NCBI GenBank assembly: GCA_934307695.1
Contig: CAKRCS010000013.1
Location: 1 to 53,969, forward strand
DNA from: an uncultured Agathobacter sp.
Lineage (GTDB): Bacteria; Bacillota; Clostridia; Lachnospirales; Lachnospiraceae
Direction of reading: 5' to 3'
Length of the DNA: 53,969 nucleotides
Positions within the stretch are counted from its first letter, which is position 1. Each line of letters opens with the position of its first letter. Shown piece by piece: positions 22,905 through 41,977 of the stretch. Under the pieces are notes generated by a model. That model saw only the letters and a program-made list of their open reading frames with translations. It ran no database searches and was not told the DNA's origin. The position numbers and the translations under genes are program-made.

Positions 22905-24917
22905 TTATTCCCCATCAATTTCCAATATTGCAAGCCCCCACGGATCTAGCGTAACCGCCTCTTTTGCGGCAACGGCTGTATCGGAGAGCAGTTCGGTTGC
23001 AGGCTGGCCGATATTGGTGACCGTCTGCTCCTTGGCGGAGTAGTTCAGCAGATAGACGATATGCTTTCCAAGGTCATTGATTCCCTGCTTGATGCTGACC
23101 GGGTAGGTGGCATCGAAGGAGAGCTTTGCTGTCTCGGAAAGCCGGATCTTGCGGAAGAAGCCGTCAAGCATCTGAATCAGCACCGCCTCGTCAAATAGTG
23201 TGGCAAGGTAGAGCGTATGACCGTCGCCGTAGCTGTTTTCTGCCGCTGCGGCATAGCGGTTCCACACCGGATGCCCGTAGGCCGCAACAGGAGAAGCCTC
23301 ATCACAGGTGATAAGCTCCATCCATTCTCTGGCATTTCCGGTTACACCATTGCAGCTTACCGTCACGTCCTTCGGGTACGTAAACTGGTCGTAGTGTAAG
23401 CCGAAGGTCTTGTGCAGGATATGCGGCTGTGTGTCATGGTAGATCTTAAGGTGCGCATCGGAAAAAGCGCTCTTGTAGGTCATGACCAGATTGCCGCCGT
23501 CCCTGACATAGGCATCCATCGCCGTAAGCAGGGATTCCGGAGCGCTGTACAGCGCCGGGACAAGCACACAGTCATATTCTTTGAGCAGTGAGGCATCCGC
23601 AGGAATGACATCGTACTCGATATTCATGCGGAAAAGTGCGTCGCACAGCCAGCGGAAAACGGTATTGTAGCTATGCTCTTTCAAGGTCTCCGTCGGGAAG
23701 TTGGTAAGTGCGGTCAGGGACGAATTATCCGCCATGACGGCAACACGGTTGACTTTTTTCAGGTTCTTTATGTGGGCACCAATGCGCTTCCACTCATTTC
23801 CGACAATGCTGCACTCGCGGTAGGTCTCATTCTCGGAAAAGTCGTGGGAGAGGACACCCTTCCAGTAGCTCTCCAATGAATTGTGGATGGAATGCCAATG
23901 CCAGTATTCCACGCAGTTAGCGCCGTTTGCAATGTGGCTGTATGCCTGAAGGCGGAGCTGCCCCGGATAAGGAAGCCAAGCCTGATTGCCCTGCGCCTCG
24001 GTCTCAAGGACAAAGTAGTTGTCGCGCATGAGGCTGCGGGAGATATTTCCACAAGCCGTGATCTCACAGCCGGTCAGAGCATCCTGTGATGGGTGATAGA
24101 TGTCGCAGCCCGCAACATCCATACATTTGCAAGCCTGCCACTGATCAACCTCCGGCTGAATGCCAAAGGAGGTGCCGACCCACGAATAGTCAAAGTTCTG
24201 GGTGATGAACTGGTCGGGACGCTTATAGCTGGCTACGATATCCGCCTGCCACTGCAGAAAATCAGTTACCAGCTTGCGCTGGAAGCGGGAGTATTCTGCG
24301 GCAAGGCTTGCGTTGATGGTTCCGCGGATGTCCGGGAAATCCTCCCAGCTGTCTACGCGGTTGCTCCAGTAATCCAGTCCAAATTCGTGGTTGAACTCGG
24401 AAATATCCGGGAACTTTTTCTTAAGCTCCTCCACGAACATCTGCTGTGCGTGTACACCGCAGGTATCGTAGGATTTTGTCTCATTATCGAGCTGGAAGCC
24501 GATGACATGCGGTTCATCTCTGACTTCCTGCATCAGCTTCTCGATGATGATCTTCGCGTGCTCCAAATAAACCGGGTTGGTGATGTCCATATTCTGGCGG
24601 CGTCCGTAACGCTCCGGACCGTTGTGCGTGACGGCGAGAATGTCGTCCGACTTTTTGGCAAGCCAGCTTGGAATCGCGTAGGTAGGTGTGCCGACGATGA
24701 CCGAGATATTATGGCGCCTGGCAGCGTCCAACATACGGTGAAGGCTGGTAAAATTGAATACCCCCTCCTGTGGCTCCCAGGTGCTCCAGGTGGATTCTGC
24801 GATACGGATGAGATTCATTCCGGCACGCTCCATCATCTCCATATCCGTCTCGATGCGGTCATACGGAATGTATTCGTCATAGTAGGCTGCCCCATAGAAC
24901 AGTTTATCTGTTTTCAT
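22905..24917 (-). CDS. GH42 beta-galactosidase
   Basis: A 670-residue glycoside hydrolase of family 42, the normal length. The TIM barrel starts at YGAAYYDEYIPYDRIETDM. The acid/base Glu146 lies in GFQLDNETKSYD and the likely nucleophile Glu305 in YFVLETEAQG. The trimerisation domain (about 400-600) and the short C-terminal beta domain ending LDPWGLAILEID follow. There is no signal peptide, so it acts on imported galactosides or galacto-oligosaccharides. AGGAGG precedes the start. Its promoter and a TTGCGCAA operator lie in the gap shared with the LacI-type gene. Confidence 0.93.
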   Translation of the reverse strand: MKTDKLFYGAAYYDEYIPYDRIETDMEMMERAGMNLIRIAESTWSTWEPQEGVFNFTSLHRMLDAARRHNISVIVGTPTYAIPSWLAKKSDDILAVTHNGPERYGRRQNMDITNPVYLEHAKIIIEKLMQEVRDEPHVIGFQLDNETKSYDTCGVHAQQMFVEELKKKFPDISEFNHEFGLDYWSNRVDSWEDFPDIRGTINASLAAEYSRFQRKLVTDFLQWQADIVASYKRPDQFITQNFDYSWVGTSFGIQPEVDQWQACKCMDVAGCDIYHPSQDALTGCEITACGNISRSLMRDNYFVLETEAQGNQAWLPYPGQLRLQAYSHIANGANCVEYWHWHSIHNSLESYWKGVLSHDFSENETYRECSIVGNEWKRIGAHIKNLKKVNRVAVMADNSSLTALTNFPTETLKEHSYNTVFRWLCDALFRMNIEYDVIPADASLLKEYDCVLVPALYSAPESLLTAMDAYVRDGGNLVMTYKSAFSDAHLKIYHDTQPHILHKTFGLHYDQFTYPKDVTVSCNGVTGNAREWMELITCDEASPVAAYGHPVWNRYAAAAENSYGDGHTLYLATLFDEAVLIQMLDGFFRKIRLSETAKLSFDATYPVSIKQGINDLGKHIVYLLNYSAKEQTVTNIGQPATELLSDTAVAAKEAVTLDPWGLAILEIDGE

Positions 24918-24943: not shown

Positions 24944-24951
24944 TTGCGCAA
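24944..24951. promoter_or_regulatory. TTGCGCAA operator at the GH42 transcription start
   Basis: A perfect palindrome 16 bases downstream of the GH42 -10 element, so a bound repressor would block initiation or early elongation. It is the same word as at 25091, 26273 and 26401. Confidence 0.75.
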
Positions 24952-25118: not shown

Positions 25119-25161
25119 AAAATGGGTTTAGACGAAAACGAGAAAGATGGGGAACTGCAAA

Positions 25162-26157
25162 ATGAGTAAAAACATTACGATATCAGATGTCGCGGAGGCA
25201 CTTGGGGTATCGAAAACAACGGTCAGCCGCGCAATCTCCGGCAAGGGAAGGATCGGCGAGGCTACGCGGCAAAGGGTAATGGAATATATCACGGAGCATG
25301 ACTACAAGCCGAATGTCATCGCAAAGGGGCTTGCGCAGTCAAAGACGTACAATATATGTGTGGTGATGCCGGGCAATTATGCGCTGGTGGATCTTCCGTT
25401 CTTCCAGGAGGCAATCATGGGGATTCAGGAGATCGCGGGAATGATGGAGTACGATATCCTGCTCTGCATCTCGCAGGAGAATGATGTCAGCAGCCTGGAG
25501 CGCATTTTGTCCAATCGCAAGGTGGACGGCGTGATCCTGCTTCGAACCTTTGTGAAGGATGCACAGATCGAGCTGCTGTCCTCCAGAAACATTCCGTTTG
25601 TGACGGCAGGAAGCACCGAGTACAAGAACGTCATACAGATCGACCATGATCATAGAAATGCGTGCCGGGAGCTGACCTCCATCATCTTAATGCGGGGGAT
25701 GGAGCGCATCGCACTGCTTGGGGGCAATGAGAGCTTTGTCGTAAACAGGAGCCGTTTTCAGGGCTTTGAGGAGGCATATGCCCAGATGGGAAAGCAGTGC
25801 GAGCCGGATCTTATCTATATGAATCTGGAGAGCAAAGCGTTTATGGACCGGGCGGTGGAGTCTGCTATGGATCAGAAGGTGGACTGCATTCTGTGCATGG
25901 ATGATGCAATCTGCAGCCAGGTGCTTCGCAAGCTGCGTCAGGAGCATATCAAGGTGCCAAGAGATGTGAGGGTTGCTTCCTTCTACAACAGCTCTGTCCT
26001 TGAGAACAACATTCCGTCGATCACTTCACTGTCATTTGATGCGCGGGAGCTTGGAAGCGCTGTCTGCAAAAATCTGCTCGCGCAGATCGAGGAGGAAAAT
26101 GTGAAGGAGCGGACGTTACTTTCTTATGAAGTCGTTCTGAAGGAGTCCACGAAATAA
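25162..26157 (+). CDS. LacI-family transcriptional regulator of the galactoside locus
   Basis: A 331-residue repressor. The ATG at 25162 is preferred over 25147 (GGGGA eight bases before). The N-terminal HTH reads ITISDVAEALGVSKTTVSRA followed by ISGKGRIG, then the hinge helix HDYKPNVIAKGLAQ. The periplasmic-binding-like effector domain runs from about 60 (YNICVVMP) to 320, with VDGVILLR, IDHDHRNACRE, RIALLGGNE, VDCILCMDD and SLSFDARELG. It is divergent from GH42 and upstream of the 624-residue gene, both of which carry TTGCGCAA at their promoters. It is the natural candidate for binding them. Effector unknown. Confidence 0.92.
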   Translation: MSKNITISDVAEALGVSKTTVSRAISGKGRIGEATRQRVMEYITEHDYKPNVIAKGLAQSKTYNICVVMPGNYALVDLPFFQEAIMGIQEIAGMMEYDILLCISQENDVSSLERILSNRKVDGVILLRTFVKDAQIELLSSRNIPFVTAGSTEYKNVIQIDHDHRNACRELTSIILMRGMERIALLGGNESFVVNRSRFQGFEEAYAQMGKQCEPDLIYMNLESKAFMDRAVESAMDQKVDCILCMDDAICSQVLRKLRQEHIKVPRDVRVASFYNSSVLENNIPSITSLSFDARELGSAVCKNLLAQIEEENVKERTLLSYEVVLKESTK

Positions 26158-26172
26158 GAAAAAGACGCAAAT

Positions 26173-26305
26173 TCGCGCAAACGGGCGCAAAGGCGTGCTA
26201 TAATGCCTGAAAATGCGCGGAATGACAACCTAAAATACAATAAAAACCTTTATTTTTAAGGAAAACAACCGGTTGCGCAAAAGAAAACGGATTGCGCAGC
26301 CGGTT
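26173..26305. promoter_or_regulatory. operator array downstream of lacI-type gene
   Basis: TCGCGCAA (26173-26180) and GGGCGCAA (26183-26190) precede a TATAAT (26199-26204) without clear -35. A 14-base inverted repeat follows: AACCGGTTGCGCAA (26267-26280) against TTGCGCAGCCGGTT (26292-26305), 13 of 14 bases complementary, with an 11-base centre. No T-tract follows, so a double operator is more likely than a terminator. Confidence 0.5.
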
Positions 26306-26352: not shown

Positions 26353-26408
26353 TTGACAATCGAAAGACGTGTTGCTATACTGAGACCATAGAACAACCGA
26401 TTGCGCAA
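26353..26408 (+). promoter_or_regulatory. strong promoter plus TTGCGCAA operator for the 624-residue gene
   Basis: TTGACA (26353-26358), 17 bases, TATACT (26376-26381). A perfect TTGCGCAA (26401-26408) lies about +13 to +20 from the expected start of transcription, the same arrangement as at the GH42 promoter. Confidence 0.8.
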
Positions 26409-26512
26409 AGTGATGAGCAATAAAAGCTGTATATGGAACGACATACAGGGCAGGCACCGGTTGCAAACAAACATAATCTACAACACACAATTACCACATG
26501 GAGGGAAAGAAG

Positions 26513-28372
26513 ATGGACAAATTTGTTGTCAACATTATCCATCGTCCAGAGATGGTTCCGGAGTATTCCGCAACTGTTACCGGACAGGGCAAGGAAGAGG
26601 ATATCGGAGACAAGAAGCTGATTTCTGAATCACTTGACATTTTCAAGACGCAGCAGAGACTGGCACATGAGAACGGACTTAAGGTTACGATCCAGATGAC
26701 CTACGCAGCTCTTTTTAATCAGGAAGCTGTTGAGATCGCAAAGCATGACCATGAAGTATACGGCGATGAGATCGCACTTTCTTTGCTCGGACTTCCTTGC
26801 GAGGAGTTCCGTGAGAAGTATAAGACCAAGGATTTCTGTATCTGGATGTTCTCGATGGAGGACAAGAAGGCGATCGTCAATGACGTTTTCGAGAAGTTCC
26901 ATGACGCATTCGGATTTTATCCGGAATCAACCGGTTCTTACTACATGGACGCAGATCTGACCAACTACATCAAGGAGCAGTACCCGATGGTTAAGTGTGC
27001 GGTTGCTACCTGCTGGGAAGAAGGACCGAAGGCATACCACACCTGCAACAACTCCTGGTACACATTATTCGATGGCGGCCCATGGGCACCGTGGATCCCT
27101 TCTAAGCAGAATACACATGCACCGGCTGCAAACGCAGCAGAGGACAGCGGAATCGTTGCAATCCCGCATCTTTCCCGTGACCTTATCGCATGCTACGACG
27201 GAAATGGCTCCAACTTCGGAACACATCCGCAGAACGTACTCCGTGGTATGATCTATGATACAAAGACCTGGGAGTATCCATACCTTTACAACCTGATCGA
27301 CCAGTATCGTGATCTTGAGAAGTATAACAACGGATATTCCTACAACATGATGTTCGTAGGACCGGGCTGGATGAACAAGATGGGACGCTGGGAGCAGCCG
27401 TATGAGCTTCTTCTTAAGTCTTATTCCGATGGCTGCGCTTACTACGGCAAGCTCAAGAAGGAAGGCAAGCTCGTTGATATGACCATGTCTGAGTTTGCAG
27501 ATTATTACAGAGAGAAGAAGGGCGTAAATGCCGGCAACTACAACGAGCCGGAGTGCGCACCTTGGAGAGATATCCTTTACGGATCTGACAAGCAGTTATT
27601 CTGGTACTGCGATCCATACATGAGAGCGTGTGTCAACATGGATCAGGGCGGTGCGATCGTAGATCTTCGTCCTTATGTTGCCAAGCTTGAGTGGCCGGTA
27701 GGAATCGGAACAAAGCATGTACAGGATGCTTCTTATCCATTCCTGATCCAGGAGAAGTACCGTGCAGGATACTTCACACACTACGCAGGAGCAGGTACTG
27801 TCCGCTCTGCTAAGCTCTCTTATCAGGGAGAGGAAGTTGACCTTTGCCTCTGCCCGACACACTGCCACTTCTCAGAGGAGATGATCGATGGCAAGAAGAA
27901 CCGTGTCCTTACCCTTGATCCGGTAGAGATCCAGTTCTACGGCGTAACCGTTAAGCTTCAGACAAAGGAATACTTTGAAGAAGGATCTTCCAGCATCAAG
28001 ATCGAGCGTAACATCTTAGAGATCAGTGATCCAAATGCAGAGATCTATCTTGATGAGTACATTACCGCATGCTACGGTACAACCGAGTATCCGGAGGATA
28101 TGACCGGCATCACCTTAAAGTGCGAGGGAGAGAACGAGCAGACCATCAATTACGAGTACAAGTGCCGCGATGCCAAGGTAGAGGGCGCAAGTGCAGTAAG
28201 TGCAGTGATCCCGGCGATCCAGACTAAGGTTTCCCTTACTCCGTCCGCAAAGGCATTGGGTTACGTTGAAGAGGGATATGCATTCTCACCAATGTTTAAG
28301 TTGGGATACAAGAAGAAGATTTCTGATAAGGAGGTATTTGCAACATGGCTCAACTTGGAAAAGGCAAATTAA
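26513..28372 (+). CDS. uncharacterised barrel protein of the galactoside locus (candidate new carbohydrate-active enzyme)
   Basis: About 619 residues if the ATG at 26513 (MDKFVVNIIHRPEMV, after GGAGGGAAAGA) is used; the upstream in-frame ATG at 26498 would add MEGKK. I do not recognise a named family. The first ~350 residues look like a (beta/alpha) barrel related in pattern to NodB deacetylases and GH38/GH57-type enzymes. Candidate active-site features are HDHEVYGDEIALS, YPESTGSYYMDADLTNYIKE and IPHLSRDLI. Aromatic-rich stretches (WYTLFDGGPWAPWIP) suit sugar binding. From about 390 to the end the sequence is beta-rich. No signal peptide, so cytosolic. Codon use suggests high expression. The promoter/operator at 26353-26408 ties it to GH42. 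Confidence 0.8.
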   Translation: MDKFVVNIIHRPEMVPEYSATVTGQGKEEDIGDKKLISESLDIFKTQQRLAHENGLKVTIQMTYAALFNQEAVEIAKHDHEVYGDEIALSLLGLPCEEFREKYKTKDFCIWMFSMEDKKAIVNDVFEKFHDAFGFYPESTGSYYMDADLTNYIKEQYPMVKCAVATCWEEGPKAYHTCNNSWYTLFDGGPWAPWIPSKQNTHAPAANAAEDSGIVAIPHLSRDLIACYDGNGSNFGTHPQNVLRGMIYDTKTWEYPYLYNLIDQYRDLEKYNNGYSYNMMFVGPGWMNKMGRWEQPYELLLKSYSDGCAYYGKLKKEGKLVDMTMSEFADYYREKKGVNAGNYNEPECAPWRDILYGSDKQLFWYCDPYMRACVNMDQGGAIVDLRPYVAKLEWPVGIGTKHVQDASYPFLIQEKYRAGYFTHYAGAGTVRSAKLSYQGEEVDLCLCPTHCHFSEEMIDGKKNRVLTLDPVEIQFYGVTVKLQTKEYFEEGSSSIKIERNILEISDPNAEIYLDEYITACYGTTEYPEDMTGITLKCEGENEQTINYEYKCRDAKVEGASAVSAVIPAIQTKVSLTPSAKALGYVEEGYAFSPMFKLGYKKKISDKEVFATWLNLEKAN

Positions 28373-28563
28373 ATTACAGATGTCCATCCTGCTTTATGCG
28401 AGACCTCGACATCGATATGTTCTATAACAAAGACACCGGTATTTACAGCTGCATCCGCTGCCAGTTCAGAGGAGACGAGGCGAAGGTACTTGAGTGGAAT
28501 GAAAAAGTAAGAGAGCGTTATGGCGCTATGTACGAGAGATTCGACAAGTTCGATTTCGATTAA
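28345..28563 (+). CDS. small zinc-ribbon protein overlapping the barrel gene
   Basis: Seventy-two residues. AAGGAGG lies upstream of the ATG, inside the last codons of the 624-residue gene, and the reading frames overlap by 28 bases, so translation is coupled. Four cysteines form a zinc ribbon: YRCPSCFMRD and YSCIRCQFRG, spaced by about 19 residues. The C-terminal third is a charged helix (KVLEWNEKVRERYGAMYERF) ending in an acidic/aromatic tail. It resembles short primase/RNA-polymerase-type ribbons only by cysteine spacing. Function unknown; the coupling suggests a partner or regulator of the barrel protein. Confidence 0.8.
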   Translation: MAQLGKGKLNYRCPSCFMRDLDIDMFYNKDTGIYSCIRCQFRGDEAKVLEWNEKVRERYGAMYERFDKFDFD

Positions 28564-28574
28564 ATTGAAGCAGG

Positions 28575-28618
28575 AAAGAGGCAGCCAGGCTGAAAAAACG
28601 CGGGACTGCCTCTTTTTT
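28575..28618 (+). terminator. terminator after the zinc-ribbon gene
   Basis: AAAGAGGCAG (28575-28584) pairs with CTGCCTCTTT, followed by a run of T. Confidence 0.85.
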
Positions 28619-28672
28619 TACTCTATACTTTAGAAGAAACCTTTGAATGCTAAGAAATGGAGATTCACTTTT

Positions 28673-32714
<4,042 letters not shown>

Positions 32715-32757: not shown

Positions 32758-33867
32758 ATGAGTAAGTTTATCAAAGGAATGGATTTATCAACCTTACTTG
32801 AAGTTGAGCGCTGCGGCGGCAGGTTCTATGATCACGGCAGGGAGCGCGATCTGCTCGATATTATGAGAGACTATGACGTTGACACCATCCGGCTCCGTCT
32901 GTGGAATGATCCGAAATCCGAAGCCGGAGAGCCGTATGGAGCGGGCAACAACGATCTTTCCGAGACGATCGCGCTCGGAAAGCGTGTATCGGATGCGGGC
33001 TTTGGCGTGCTGCTCAATTTCCATTACAGCGATTTCTGGGCAGATCCGGGCAAGCAGATCAAGCCAAAGGCATGGGCTTCCTACGGTGTGGAGGAACTGG
33101 AGCAGGCAGTTTATGACTACACGAAGGATTCTCTTGTAAAGGTGCTGGATGCCGGTGTGAATGTCACCATGATCCAGGTCGGCAACGAGCTGTCAAACGG
33201 ACTGCTCTGGCCGGAGGGACAGGTGCCGAACTATGACAACATTGCACGTTTTGTAAGTGCCGGAATCCGCGCATGCCGCGAGGTAAAGGCAGATATCCCG
33301 CTTATGATCCATCTGGATAACGGCGGCAACAACGAGCTGTACCGCAGATGGTTTGACAATTATATGGAGCGTGGGGAGGACTTTGATTATATCGGAATGT
33401 CCTATTATCCGTTCTGGCACGGAAGTCTGGACCAGCTCGAATATAACATGAACGACATTGCCGCACGCTACGGCAAGGATATTATCGTAGCCGAGGTATC
33501 CATGGGCTTTACGATGGAGGACTACAAGGACTACGAGAAGCTGTCCGACAGTGAGCGTAAGGGCTATGCAACCCGCCCGGCACTTGTCGAGAAGATCGAT
33601 TATCCAATGACGATCGAAGGTCAGACCGATTTTACCAAGGACTTTTTGAACCGTGTGGCAAATGTCTGCGGCAATCACGGCGTGGGCTTCTTCTGGTGGG
33701 AGCCGGCATGGATTCCGGTACCGGGAAGCGGATGGGCGACACCGGCTTCCTTAGAGTATATGAAAGATCCGGGACCGTGTGGTAATGAATGGGCGAATCA
33801 GGCGCTGTTTGATTACGATGGAAATATCCTTCCGGCGTTTGATGTGATCCGCGATTTTAAGAAGTAA
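32758..33867 (+). CDS. GH53 endo-beta-1,4-galactanase, apparently cytosolic
   Basis: A 369-residue GH53 enzyme. The barrel begins MSKFIKGMDLSTLLEVERCG. Landmarks are VDTIRLRLWNDP, LNFHYSDFWADPGKQ, the acid/base Glu144 in MIQVGNELSNGLL, the nucleophile Glu246 in IIVAEVSMGF, and FFWWEPAWIPVPGSGW near the end. GH53 normally cleaves arabinogalactan I backbones outside the cell, but no signal peptide is present here. It likely trims imported galacto-oligosaccharides for GH2 and GH42. It follows GH2 by 43 bases and ends the operon at the terminator 33872-33917. Confidence 0.93.
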   Translation: MSKFIKGMDLSTLLEVERCGGRFYDHGRERDLLDIMRDYDVDTIRLRLWNDPKSEAGEPYGAGNNDLSETIALGKRVSDAGFGVLLNFHYSDFWADPGKQIKPKAWASYGVEELEQAVYDYTKDSLVKVLDAGVNVTMIQVGNELSNGLLWPEGQVPNYDNIARFVSAGIRACREVKADIPLMIHLDNGGNNELYRRWFDNYMERGEDFDYIGMSYYPFWHGSLDQLEYNMNDIAARYGKDIIVAEVSMGFTMEDYKDYEKLSDSERKGYATRPALVEKIDYPMTIEGQTDFTKDFLNRVANVCGNHGVGFFWWEPAWIPVPGSGWATPASLEYMKDPGPCGNEWANQALFDYDGNILPAFDVIRDFKK

Positions 33868-33918: not shown

Positions 33919-34248
33919 CTTTATAGGATTAGGGTGTCAAAAGGTGGTTTTACATTTTTTGATTGGCAAATTGCACAAAGCTGAACCTTGTTTTGTTCCG
34001 ATGTCCGAAAATAAGAAAATCTAAGTCTGCCTGAGTTAGGTTGTATCAGAGGAACGTGTACGCCTTAAACGCCCCGTCCATGGGGCGTTAAGACTTTTGC
34101 TGCCGTCCTTGGCAGCAAACCACTATGCATTGACAGGCAGATTAAGATTTACTAATTTTCTCCCAAAGTCACAAAAAAGGTTCTGCTTTGTGCAATTTGC
34201 CAGCCATTAAGTTTTGAATCACCTTTTGATACCCTAATCTTTATAGGA
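33919..34248. mobile_element. foldback MITE-like element with 10-bp flanking repeats
   Basis: A 310-bp element (33929-34238) is flanked by the direct repeat CTTTATAGGA (33919-33928 and 34239-34248). Its ends are inverted: TTAGGGTGTCAAAAGGTG on the left and CACCTTTTGATACCCTAA on the right, 17 of 18 bases. The inversion continues inward imperfectly for about 110 bases on each arm (GGCAAATTGCACAAAGC on the left against GCTTTGTGCAATTTGCC on the right, and TCTGCCTG against CAGGCAGA). No open reading frame of note is inside. It fills the gap between the galactan operon and the metal operon. This is the expected structure of a non-autonomous transposable element with target duplication. Confidence 0.75.
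34064..34119. repeat. twin hairpins with shared CCGTCCWTGG loop at the element centre
   Basis: AACGCCCC-GTCCAT-GGGGCGTT (34068-34089) and TTTGCTGCC-GTCCTT-GGCAGCAAA (34096-34119) are adjacent perfect hairpins. Stems differ in sequence but loops are nearly identical, which suggests selection on structure plus loop. Confidence 0.7.
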
Positions 34249-34725: not shown

Positions 34726-36633
34726 ATGAACAAGAAGCAAAAAAAGATGTTCAAACGTATCATTGCAGCGACGGTCATGATGATCGTGCTGAAGATAGCT
34801 GGCAGCTTTATTTCATTTGATAAGATCCCGCTCGGCAATTTCTTGCTATTTGCCCTGTATATGGTGCCATATCTTACGATCGGACACGATATCCTAAGAA
34901 AGGCATGGAAGGGAATACGCAACCATCAGGTATTCGACGAGAACTTCCTTATGGCAGTCGCAACCGTTGGCGCGATCATTGTAGCGCTTGTCGAAAGCGG
35001 CGATTATACAGAAGCGATCGCGGTTATGCTGTTCTACCAGATCGGCGAGCTGTTCCAGAGCATTGCGGTCGGAAAGAGCCGCAAGAACATCAGCGAGCTT
35101 ATGGATATCCGCCCGGACTACGCCAATATCGAGGTTGACGGACAGTTACAGCAGGTAACACCGGATGAGGTTGCCATCGGTTCTGTTATCGTGGTTCAGC
35201 CGGGTGAGAAGGTTCCGATCGACGGCGTGGTGGAGGAAGGTACTTCCACCTTAAATACAAGTGCCTTGACCGGAGAGAGTCTTCCGCGTGAGGTGCAGGC
35301 GGGGGATGAGATCATCAGCGGCTGCATCAATATGTCCGGACTTTTACGCATCCGTACCACCAAGGCGTTTGGCGAGTCGACCGTATCCAAGATACTGGAT
35401 CTGGTTGAAAATTCCAGCTCCAAGAAATCACGTTCCGAGAACTTTATCTCAAAATTTGCAAAGTATTATACCCCGGCAGTATGTTATTCCGCACTGGTGT
35501 TAGCTTTTTTGCCGCCGATCGTAAATCTGTTCATCGGCAATTCACCGGAGTTTGGAACGTGGGTATACCGTGCGCTTACCTTTCTTGTAACAAGCTGTCC
35601 GTGTGCGCTGGTCATCAGTATTCCACTTAGCTTTTTCGCAGGAATCGGTGGAGCAAGCCATGAGGGCGTGCTGATCAAGGGATCGAATTATCTGGAGACA
35701 CTGGCACAGACCAAGTATGTGGTCTTTGACAAGACCGGTACAATGACGCAGGGCGTTTTTGAGGTGAGCGACATTGCAAGCAGGGATCTGCCGGATGAGC
35801 AGGTGCTTGCGTATGCAGCGCTTGCGGAGAGCTTTTCTTCACATCCGATCAGCAAGAGCTTACAGAAGGCATATAAAAAGCCGATCGACCAGAACCGTGT
35901 GACCGAGGTGGAAGAAATCAGCGGTCATGGTGTTACGGCAAAGGTTGATGGCGTACCGGTTGCTGTCGGTAACGACAAGCTGATGCGAAGCCTTGGACTT
36001 TCCTATGACATCTGCGACAAGACCGGTACGATCGTGTATGTGGCAGTCAACGGAAAATACGAGGGCTACATCCTGATCTCAGATCTTTTGAAGCCGACCG
36101 CTAAGGATGCGATCCGCGCACTTCACAAGGGTGGTATCAAGAAAACGGTTATGCTTACCGGTGACCGTGCAGCAGTTGCCAATCAGGTTGCAGGCGAGCT
36201 TGGTGTCGATGAGGTATATAGCGAGCTGCTTCCGGCGGATAAGGTAGCAAAGGTTGAGGAGCTGATAGACAAAAAGGGCGCGAAGGAGAAACTTGCGTTT
36301 GTCGGTGACGGTATCAATGACGCGCCGGTACTTTCTCGCGCAGATATTGGTATTGCGATGGGAGCGCTTGGCTCGGATGCCGCGATCGAGGCTGCGGATA
36401 TCGTGCTTATGGATGATGATCCGCTTAAGATCTCAAAGGCGATCAGGATTTCCCGCAAATGCTTGCGCATCGTCTACGAGAACACCTACTTTGCAATCGG
36501 AATCAAGCTGCTTTGCTTAGTGCTCGTTGCACTTGGATATGCAAACATGTGGTTCGCAATCTTTGCGGATGTCGGAGTAATGGTTATTGCAGTTGTCAAT
36601 GCGATCCGCGCACTTTTTGTTAAGAAGCTCTGA
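34726..36633 (+). CDS. P1B-type heavy metal-exporting ATPase (Cd/Zn/Pb type)
   Basis: A 635-residue pump without an N-terminal metal-binding domain. Features in order: TGES (182-185, actuator), CPC (291-293, intramembrane metal site), phosphorylation site DKTGT (335-339), HP locus SSHPIS (372-377), MLTGDR and GDGIND (527-532). The C-terminal membrane pair carries the DVGVMVI segment seen in Zn/Cd pumps. It expels divalent soft metals using ATP. A second DKTGT occurs at 431-435 in the nucleotide-binding domain, by sequence coincidence. It lies between the HMA gene and the ArsR sensor. Confidence 0.94.
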   Translation: MNKKQKKMFKRIIAATVMMIVLKIAGSFISFDKIPLGNFLLFALYMVPYLTIGHDILRKAWKGIRNHQVFDENFLMAVATVGAIIVALVESGDYTEAIAVMLFYQIGELFQSIAVGKSRKNISELMDIRPDYANIEVDGQLQQVTPDEVAIGSVIVVQPGEKVPIDGVVEEGTSTLNTSALTGESLPREVQAGDEIISGCINMSGLLRIRTTKAFGESTVSKILDLVENSSSKKSRSENFISKFAKYYTPAVCYSALVLAFLPPIVNLFIGNSPEFGTWVYRALTFLVTSCPCALVISIPLSFFAGIGGASHEGVLIKGSNYLETLAQTKYVVFDKTGTMTQGVFEVSDIASRDLPDEQVLAYAALAESFSSHPISKSLQKAYKKPIDQNRVTEVEEISGHGVTAKVDGVPVAVGNDKLMRSLGLSYDICDKTGTIVYVAVNGKYEGYILISDLLKPTAKDAIRALHKGGIKKTVMLTGDRAAVANQVAGELGVDEVYSELLPADKVAKVEELIDKKGAKEKLAFVGDGINDAPVLSRADIGIAMGALGSDAAIEAADIVLMDDDPLKISKAIRISRKCLRIVYENTYFAIGIKLLCLVLVALGYANMWFAIFADVGVMVIAVVNAIRALFVKKL

Positions 36634-41827: not shown

Positions 41828-41858
41828 ATAATTACTCTTTGCACTGCATACAAACTAC

Positions 41859-41977
41859 AGTACAAACTGAGCAGGCCGTGACGGTTGTCATGGGGTCGGG
41901 TCACTGATGTGACAGTGGAAGCTTTTTCATCCACGGGACAGTAGATACTTACATACTGGTTCGTGGGTGTTTTTTTA
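41859..41977 (+). promoter_or_regulatory. NiCo (czcD) riboswitch with terminator platform
   Basis: The conserved NiCo segments AACTGAGCAGGC (41865-41876) and GGGACAGT (41935-41942) are present. They join a four-way junction: P1 (AGTA/TACT and ACTG/CAGT), P2 (CGTGAC/GTCATG), P3 (GTCAC/GTGAC) and P4 (GTGGA/TCCAC). The expression platform is a terminator: ATCCACG and CAGTA (41929-41943) pair with TACTG and CGTGGGT (41954-41968), followed by seven or more T. Terminator pairing uses the P1 and P4 3' strands, so Ni/Co binding should turn the downstream CDF transporter gene on. This agrees with known riboswitches of this class. Confidence 0.9.

Follow-up and report, generated by a model that had tools for sequence, protein, structure and literature searches.

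We analyzed a 53,969-nucleotide (nt) stretch of DNA, referred to here as the window, from an uncultured Agathobacter sp. (assembly GCA_934307695.1, contig CAKRCS010000013.1, forward strand). Among its galactan genes, the window carries a gene for a protein of no named family (hereafter the large protein). This gene is genetically paired with an overlapping gene for a 72-residue zinc-ribbon protein, which our follow-up analysis found and which is absent from a preliminary description of the same DNA. We propose, with a probability only slightly above one-half (roughly 0.52), that the large protein is a cytosolic, probably metal-independent glycosidase that has the ribbon protein as an obligate subunit and acts on galactan-derived oligosaccharides.

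The open reading frame (ORF) for the large protein spans positions 26,498 to 28,372 (+) and encodes 624 amino acids from its first ATG and 619 from the ATG at 26,513, in keeping with the length of 619 to 624 residues originally reported. The second ATG is the likely start of the gene (26,513 to 28,372, +): GGAGG lies just 5' of it, and tblastn matches in 80 orthologous loci mostly begin at residue 1 of the shorter form. These loci are the best 80 of at least 573 matches and not a random sample, and identities of the large protein derived from them are therefore skewed upward. No Pfam or NCBIfam model matches the protein at E ≤ 1, in agreement with the earlier statement that no CAZy family was recognized, and 2,421 proteins are related to it by sequence at E ≤ 0.001. 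The codon bias of the gene is strong (effective codon number 39.3, the second lowest among the 22 window ORFs computed), and no signal peptide was seen by eye.

A fairer test than the 80 similarity-picked loci is provided by a draw of 391 Clostridia genomes, 24 of which carry a match to the large protein. Nine of these belong to the window's own clade (61 to 88% identity), seven to its sister clade A1 (32 to 39%), and seven to the more distant clade A2 (25 to 30%). The sole fragment (L097) contains three stops and was set aside as not intact. A phylum-wide draw yielded a match in 1 of 398 genomes, namely the centre genome itself, and plasmid records gave a single match, from Parabacteroides, with 25% identity across 35% of the protein.

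A zinc-ribbon gene paired with the gene for the large protein

The ribbon gene (28,345 to 28,563, +) overlaps the gene for the large protein by 28 nt in another frame, and its Shine-Dalgarno sequence, AAGGAGGT (28,328 to 28,335, +), lies within the coding sequence of the larger gene. Both features are present in all 79 loci where they could be assessed: the overlap is always 28 nt, and the AGGAG/GGAGG core is always retained, including at one locus where the remainder of the ribbon gene is unreadable. At the 80th locus, the contig stops 61 nt past the gene for the large protein and no ribbon ORF was called. In the 391-genome draw, the ribbon gene adjoins its partner in 17 of 17 intact places of the window's clade and clade A1 (16 genomes). 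Every match to the ribbon query is one of these places, directly beside a gene of the large-protein family, and the ribbon was found nowhere else in the draw, including the seven genomes that hold A2 members alone and the genome with the stop-bearing fragment. The co-occurrence by genome is highly significant (Fisher p ~1e-28), and we conclude that the two genes are genetically paired.

The ribbon protein (CPxC...CxRC) has the two CxxC knuckles of a zinc ribbon, which would bind zinc. Its residues C13, C16, C36, and C39 are invariant in the 25 ribbons of alignment A4, down to 19% identity. A structure model (predicted local distance difference test, pLDDT, 80) shows a hairpin and a C-terminal helix. 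Searching the PDB with this fold gave nothing significant (best E 0.59), nor did any Pfam or NCBIfam model match the protein above its cut-off. Because translation of the ribbon would start inside the gene for the large protein, the two proteins are presumably co-produced and most probably assemble into a single complex. R417, H423, D443, E515, and E525 of the large protein are kept in the ribbon-bearing clades (the window's clade and A1) and not in A2, which makes them candidates for a docking site. No fusion of the two proteins occurs among relatives P0001 to P0242, where the sole protein longer than 625 residues ends without a ribbon.

The large protein is also unusually constrained. Its median amino acid identity to the window is 88% (80 loci), versus 70% for the adjacent GH53 protein (65 loci) and 62% for GH2 (46 loci), and it exceeds GH53 in 65 of 65 and GH2 in 46 of 46 paired loci, although this contrast is inflated because the loci were picked by similarity to the large protein. 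Recent transfer was considered as a cause and rejected, since divergence at fourfold-degenerate sites in this gene nearly equals that in its neighbors (0.435 versus 0.356 in GH53 and 0.367 in GH2). The silent sites thus favor constraint over recent transfer.

Predicted fold and candidate active site

The structure model of the large protein is confident (pLDDT 91, predicted template modeling score 0.92) and joins a NodB/GH57-like barrel (residues ~1 to 345) to a galactose-mutarotase-like sandwich (residues ~346 to 619). The barrel-like N-terminal half and beta-rich C-terminal half expected from the preliminary description are thereby borne out. Of the architectures it named, NodB and GH57 agree with the modeled barrel. 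For GH38, the Foldseek match to the GH38 alpha-mannosidase entry 7UFU (E 3.8e-8) has a TM-score of 0.25, and there is no profile similarity to six GH38-like sequences (probability 0.2). The nearest solved fold is PDB 3LM3 (BDI_3119 of Parabacteroides distasonis), a 434-residue chain whose function is also unknown and which we take to be a DUF3863-type protein. The large protein does not match the DUF3863 model (PF12979) at E ≤ 1, and its relative L100 scores 14.0 bits against a cut-off of 27. Precomputed PF12979 assignments exist for 6 of 120 listed relatives; five of the six were rescanned, and none matched at E ≤ 0.5. A sequence search of the PDB with the large protein alone gave no match, and sequence profiles reached 3LM3 weakly (E 0.31, 0.038, and 0.0014). 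Entry 8PRJ, which ranked above 3LM3 in one profile search, is a designed repeat protein; no single stretch accounts for the match, and it was rejected.

Three conserved acids lie near the ends of barrel strands. One of them, Asp146, is present in 94 of the 95 sequences in alignment A3 and sits in a [WY]xxD motif, apparently close to the place of the GH57 catalytic Glu. The other two fall in segments that had been described as rich in His, Asp, and Glu. When the polar residues, glycines, and prolines of HDHEVYGDEIALS are considered, conservation across the window's clade and A1 is limited to G84 and E86, and across all three clades to E86. Within IPHLSRDLI, P218, H219, R222, and D223 are conserved in the window's clade and A1, whereas conservation that reaches A2 is confined to L220 and D223. 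The active site is probably at the mouth of the barrel and would use the carboxylates E86, D146, and D223 with no catalytic metal. Residues 86 to 96, which align with the HxxxH metal ligands of NodB, include no His, and the conserved residues there are acidic. Because the metal-binding His residues are absent, NodB-type deacetylation by the large protein is unlikely. GH57 enzymes have a catalytic Asp at strand beta-7; in the large protein, the segment VGPGW, which follows the strand at residues 276 to 282, has no acid, and D263 is modeled in the helix before this strand.

Galactan genes, family settings, and regulation

Pfam confirms all of the neighbors named in the preliminary description: a GH42 beta-galactosidase (22,905 to 24,917, −), a LacI-family regulator (25,147 to 26,157, +), an AraC-family regulator (28,670 to 29,611, +), a GH2 LacZ-type beta-galactosidase (29,628 to 32,714, +; NF052611 at 1,384.7 bits, cut-off 999), and a GH53 endo-beta-1,4-galactanase with no signal peptide seen by eye (32,758 to 33,867, +). 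Neighbor counts elsewhere are bounded by contig ends. We used flank length (8 kb or more upstream and 5 kb or more downstream) as the sole criterion to define 49 well-flanked loci, and named representatives of their neighbor clusters by Pfam. These loci include GH53 (43), GH2 (33), LacI (32), AraC (31), ABC permease (26), GalT (25), GalK (17), and GH42 (10), although some of the GH matches are weak, down to 23 to 30% identity. All 49 have at least one galactan or galactose gene.

The association with GH53 extends to whole genomes. GH53 was detected in 51 of the 391 genomes at E ≤ 0.001 (50 over cut-off), and its distribution is uneven: 9 of 9 genomes from the window's clade, 0 of 7 from A1, and 42 of the other 375. 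The bias toward the window's clade (9/9 versus 42/382 for the rest) has a p value of 5.7e-9. Likewise, ten further genomes from this clade, picked partly because no GH53 had been seen in the locus, all carry GH53. This clade is thus linked to galactan genes. At three loci (L048, L049, and L060), the available stretch around the gene has no GH53, GH2, or GH42. Two of these (L048 and L060) have two ABC permeases, a binding-protein-like lipoprotein, and GalK/GalT/GalE-like genes preceding the gene pair.

Other members have different neighbors, including GH31 and GH78 (L119), GH36-like (L121 and L122), uronate (L121), GH78-like (L123 and L126), and galactokinase-like (L125) genes among A1 and A2 loci, and an arabinose pathway with GH2 and GH35 at L113 in the window's clade. 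The family therefore spans several plant-glycan settings, of which the window's clade represents the galactan one. Three further loci are of separate interest. At L118 (11,639 to 15,491), an A1 member and its ribbon adjoin an HMGL-like/LeuA protein and a xylose-isomerase-like/AMP-binding fusion, which is unusual for a glycan gene. At L122 (10,862 to 18,598), an A1 member adjoins a raffinose-synthase-like gene, with glycyl-radical enzymes and activases also seen by eye. At L099 (127 to 2,571, −), the C-terminal part of an A2 relative bears Fn3-associated, chitobiase-like, and F5/8 type C domains, and its gene adjoins what by eye is a solute-binding-protein-like gene. These features suggest that the glycan family is wider.

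The gene pair of the window has features of a two-cistron unit bounded by a dedicated promoter and terminator. The near-consensus promoter noted previously is present as a sigma-70-type consensus match (TTGACA-17-TATACT with an extended −10 TG; 26,353 to 26,381, +) at 11 of 12 positions. It ranks first among 16 promoter-like sites found in 9.4 kb, where 10.4 are expected from shuffles, and such sites as a class are thus near chance. The operator-like palindrome TTGCGCAA, also noted previously, occurs upstream of the promoter (26,273 to 26,280, +) and just 3' of it (26,401 to 26,408, +, beginning 20 nt past the −10), with further copies at 24,944 and 25,091 beside the GH42 and LacI genes. The window holds six exact copies versus 1.9 expected, and none of 100 shuffles reaches six. 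Of the 79 orthologous loci, 26 have an exact copy in the 260 nt preceding the gene and 53 have none there; for comparison, 53 of 4,000 random 260-nt stretches (1.3%) contain one. A LacI-family repressor probably acts at TTGCGCAA and would switch the unit.

An intrinsic terminator follows the ribbon gene (28,572 to 28,622, +; −21.5 kcal/mol, z −4.17, with a T-run), and the two genes therefore resemble a single transcription unit whose translation is coupled here. This terminator, which the preliminary description did not include, is a result for the window. Among the orthologous loci, a T-run follows the ribbon in just 41 of 78, and in 33 of 76 a GH53 gene on the same strand starts no more than 600 nt past the ribbon. 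In a count of 75 loci, the closest labeled gene in the upstream 700 nt is most often GH2 (22), LacI (17), or an ABC permease (14); 16 loci have no such gene. The pair appears as a separate unit of transcription in the window but not in general.

Beyond the galactan genes, a heavy-metal P-type ATPase gene, assigned by eye, lies 3' of them (34,726 to 36,633, +), as it does at L001. A TwoAYGGAY RNA of cis-regulatory family RF01731 (121.9 bits) is located between GH53 and this gene (34,000 to 34,167, −), and a NiCo riboswitch (RF02683, 74.2 bits) lies at 41,857 to 41,943 (+).

Competing explanations and known systems

In the mechanism that we propose, ABC importers would bring in galactan-derived oligosaccharides, and the large subunit would cleave glycosidic bonds in the cytosol alongside the GH53 galactanase and the GH2 and GH42 beta-galactosidases, with products feeding the Leloir pathway. 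The zinc ribbon would serve as a structural or regulatory subunit. Several observations weigh against this interpretation. GH2, GH42, and GH53 suffice on paper to convert galactan to galactose, and the three genomes lacking these genes near the gene pair carry GH53 and GH2 elsewhere. Some A1 loci, such as L118, have no glycosidase among their scanned neighbors, and glycosidases do not usually have a zinc-ribbon subunit. Regarding the active site, 3LM3 has Ser at the position of D146, an ungapped GH57 register places D146 two residues beyond the catalytic Glu, and no carboxylate was found at the GH57 beta-7 place in the window's clade. The profile alignment with GH57 is not significant (probability 1.9, from six GH57 sequences of low diversity).

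The preliminary description left a choice among glycosidase, deacetylase, and lyase, and this functional interpretation is partly supported, with glycosidase favored. A lyase, phosphorylase, transglycosidase, or 3-keto-type eliminase with galactosides as substrates is unlikely and is retained as a lower-rated candidate. The conserved acids and glycan context are compatible with several such chemistries, and the Leloir-type genes at L048 and L060, with no galactosidase in reach, would suit a phosphorylase that makes galactose 1-phosphate. However, the lack of any family match means that there is no cofactor or phosphate signature either, and we know of no phosphorylase with this fold. More doubtful is an esterase or deacetylase that acts on acetylated galactan oligosaccharides by NodB-like chemistry, given the missing His ligands. 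Metal-free NodB relatives such as the PuuE allantoinase do exist, which leaves room for hydrolyses other than deacetylation.

Little probability is likewise assigned to a mutarotase or epimerase. The C-terminal half, compared with GalM (aldose 1-epimerase) by fold alone, has a galactose-mutarotase-like sandwich and could supply an aldose 1-epimerase activity that acts after beta-galactosidase and before galactokinase. It is similarly improbable that the large protein is a non-catalytic sensor or scaffold, in which a sugar-binding pseudo-enzyme would signal through the ribbon to nucleic acid or a polymerase. Zinc ribbons often bind nucleic acids or proteins, and the strong conservation of the large protein, even if measured in similarity-picked loci, would fit this role. 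However, the window already encodes LacI and AraC regulators next to it, and the three conserved acids lie close to the ends of barrel strands. The searches with the ribbon are silent on the matter rather than negative.

Butyrate-forming Lachnospiraceae, such as Roseburia, can use the galactan side chains of pectin, a dietary fiber. A large family with no Pfam or NCBIfam match that is more conserved than the adjoining galactanase suggests either a step that has been missed or an overlooked means of performing one, and its consistent pairing with the ribbon points to an unstudied two-part enzyme in fiber digestion by gut bacteria. Its short length (72 residues) and its start within another gene make the partner easy to overlook in annotation, and it offers an immediate handle on whether such enzymes need a second subunit. 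More tentatively than the glycosidase assignment, we suggest a class of two-subunit glycoside-cleaving enzymes with an unclassified NodB/GH57-like barrel and a carboxylate site that works only with its dedicated ribbon. Its paralogous clades would serve galactan, rhamnose- or uronate-containing pectin, and alpha-galactosides. If this is true, the zinc ribbon would be an essential enzyme part in a new CAZy family. Within the literature covered, which excludes most subscription papers, DUF3863 was not found. Mentions of 3LM3, BDI_3119, or PF12979 in it appear unrelated to this protein, and searches of it for galactan loci with such a gene, GH57 or deacetylase folds, and zinc-ribbon glycosidase partners gave no description of this system.

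The large protein resembles GH57 enzymes (4-alpha-glucanotransferase, amylopullulanase, and alpha-galactosidase) in having an incomplete TIM barrel. It differs in lacking a PF03065 match at E ≤ 1 and in having a zinc-ribbon partner gene; its relatives P0165 and P0123 score 13.1 and 12.6 bits, below the cut-off of 21.2. The catalytic Glu of GH57 is placed at strand beta-4 in one report (PMC6037648), whereas the nearby acid in the large protein is Asp146. With NodB/CE4 proteins (PF01522), it shares the barrel, but it lacks the HxxxH ligands and a PF01522 match at E ≤ 1, and it has the additional C-terminal sandwich. For the ribbon, our working analogy is aspartate transcarbamoylase, whose small zinc-binding regulatory chain docks on the enzyme, although ribbon and chain have no significant similarity and the fold match (1PG5_B, E 0.83) is not significant. 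The fold and the pathway are therefore of known kinds, and it is the dedicated zinc-ribbon partner and the missing motifs that are new.
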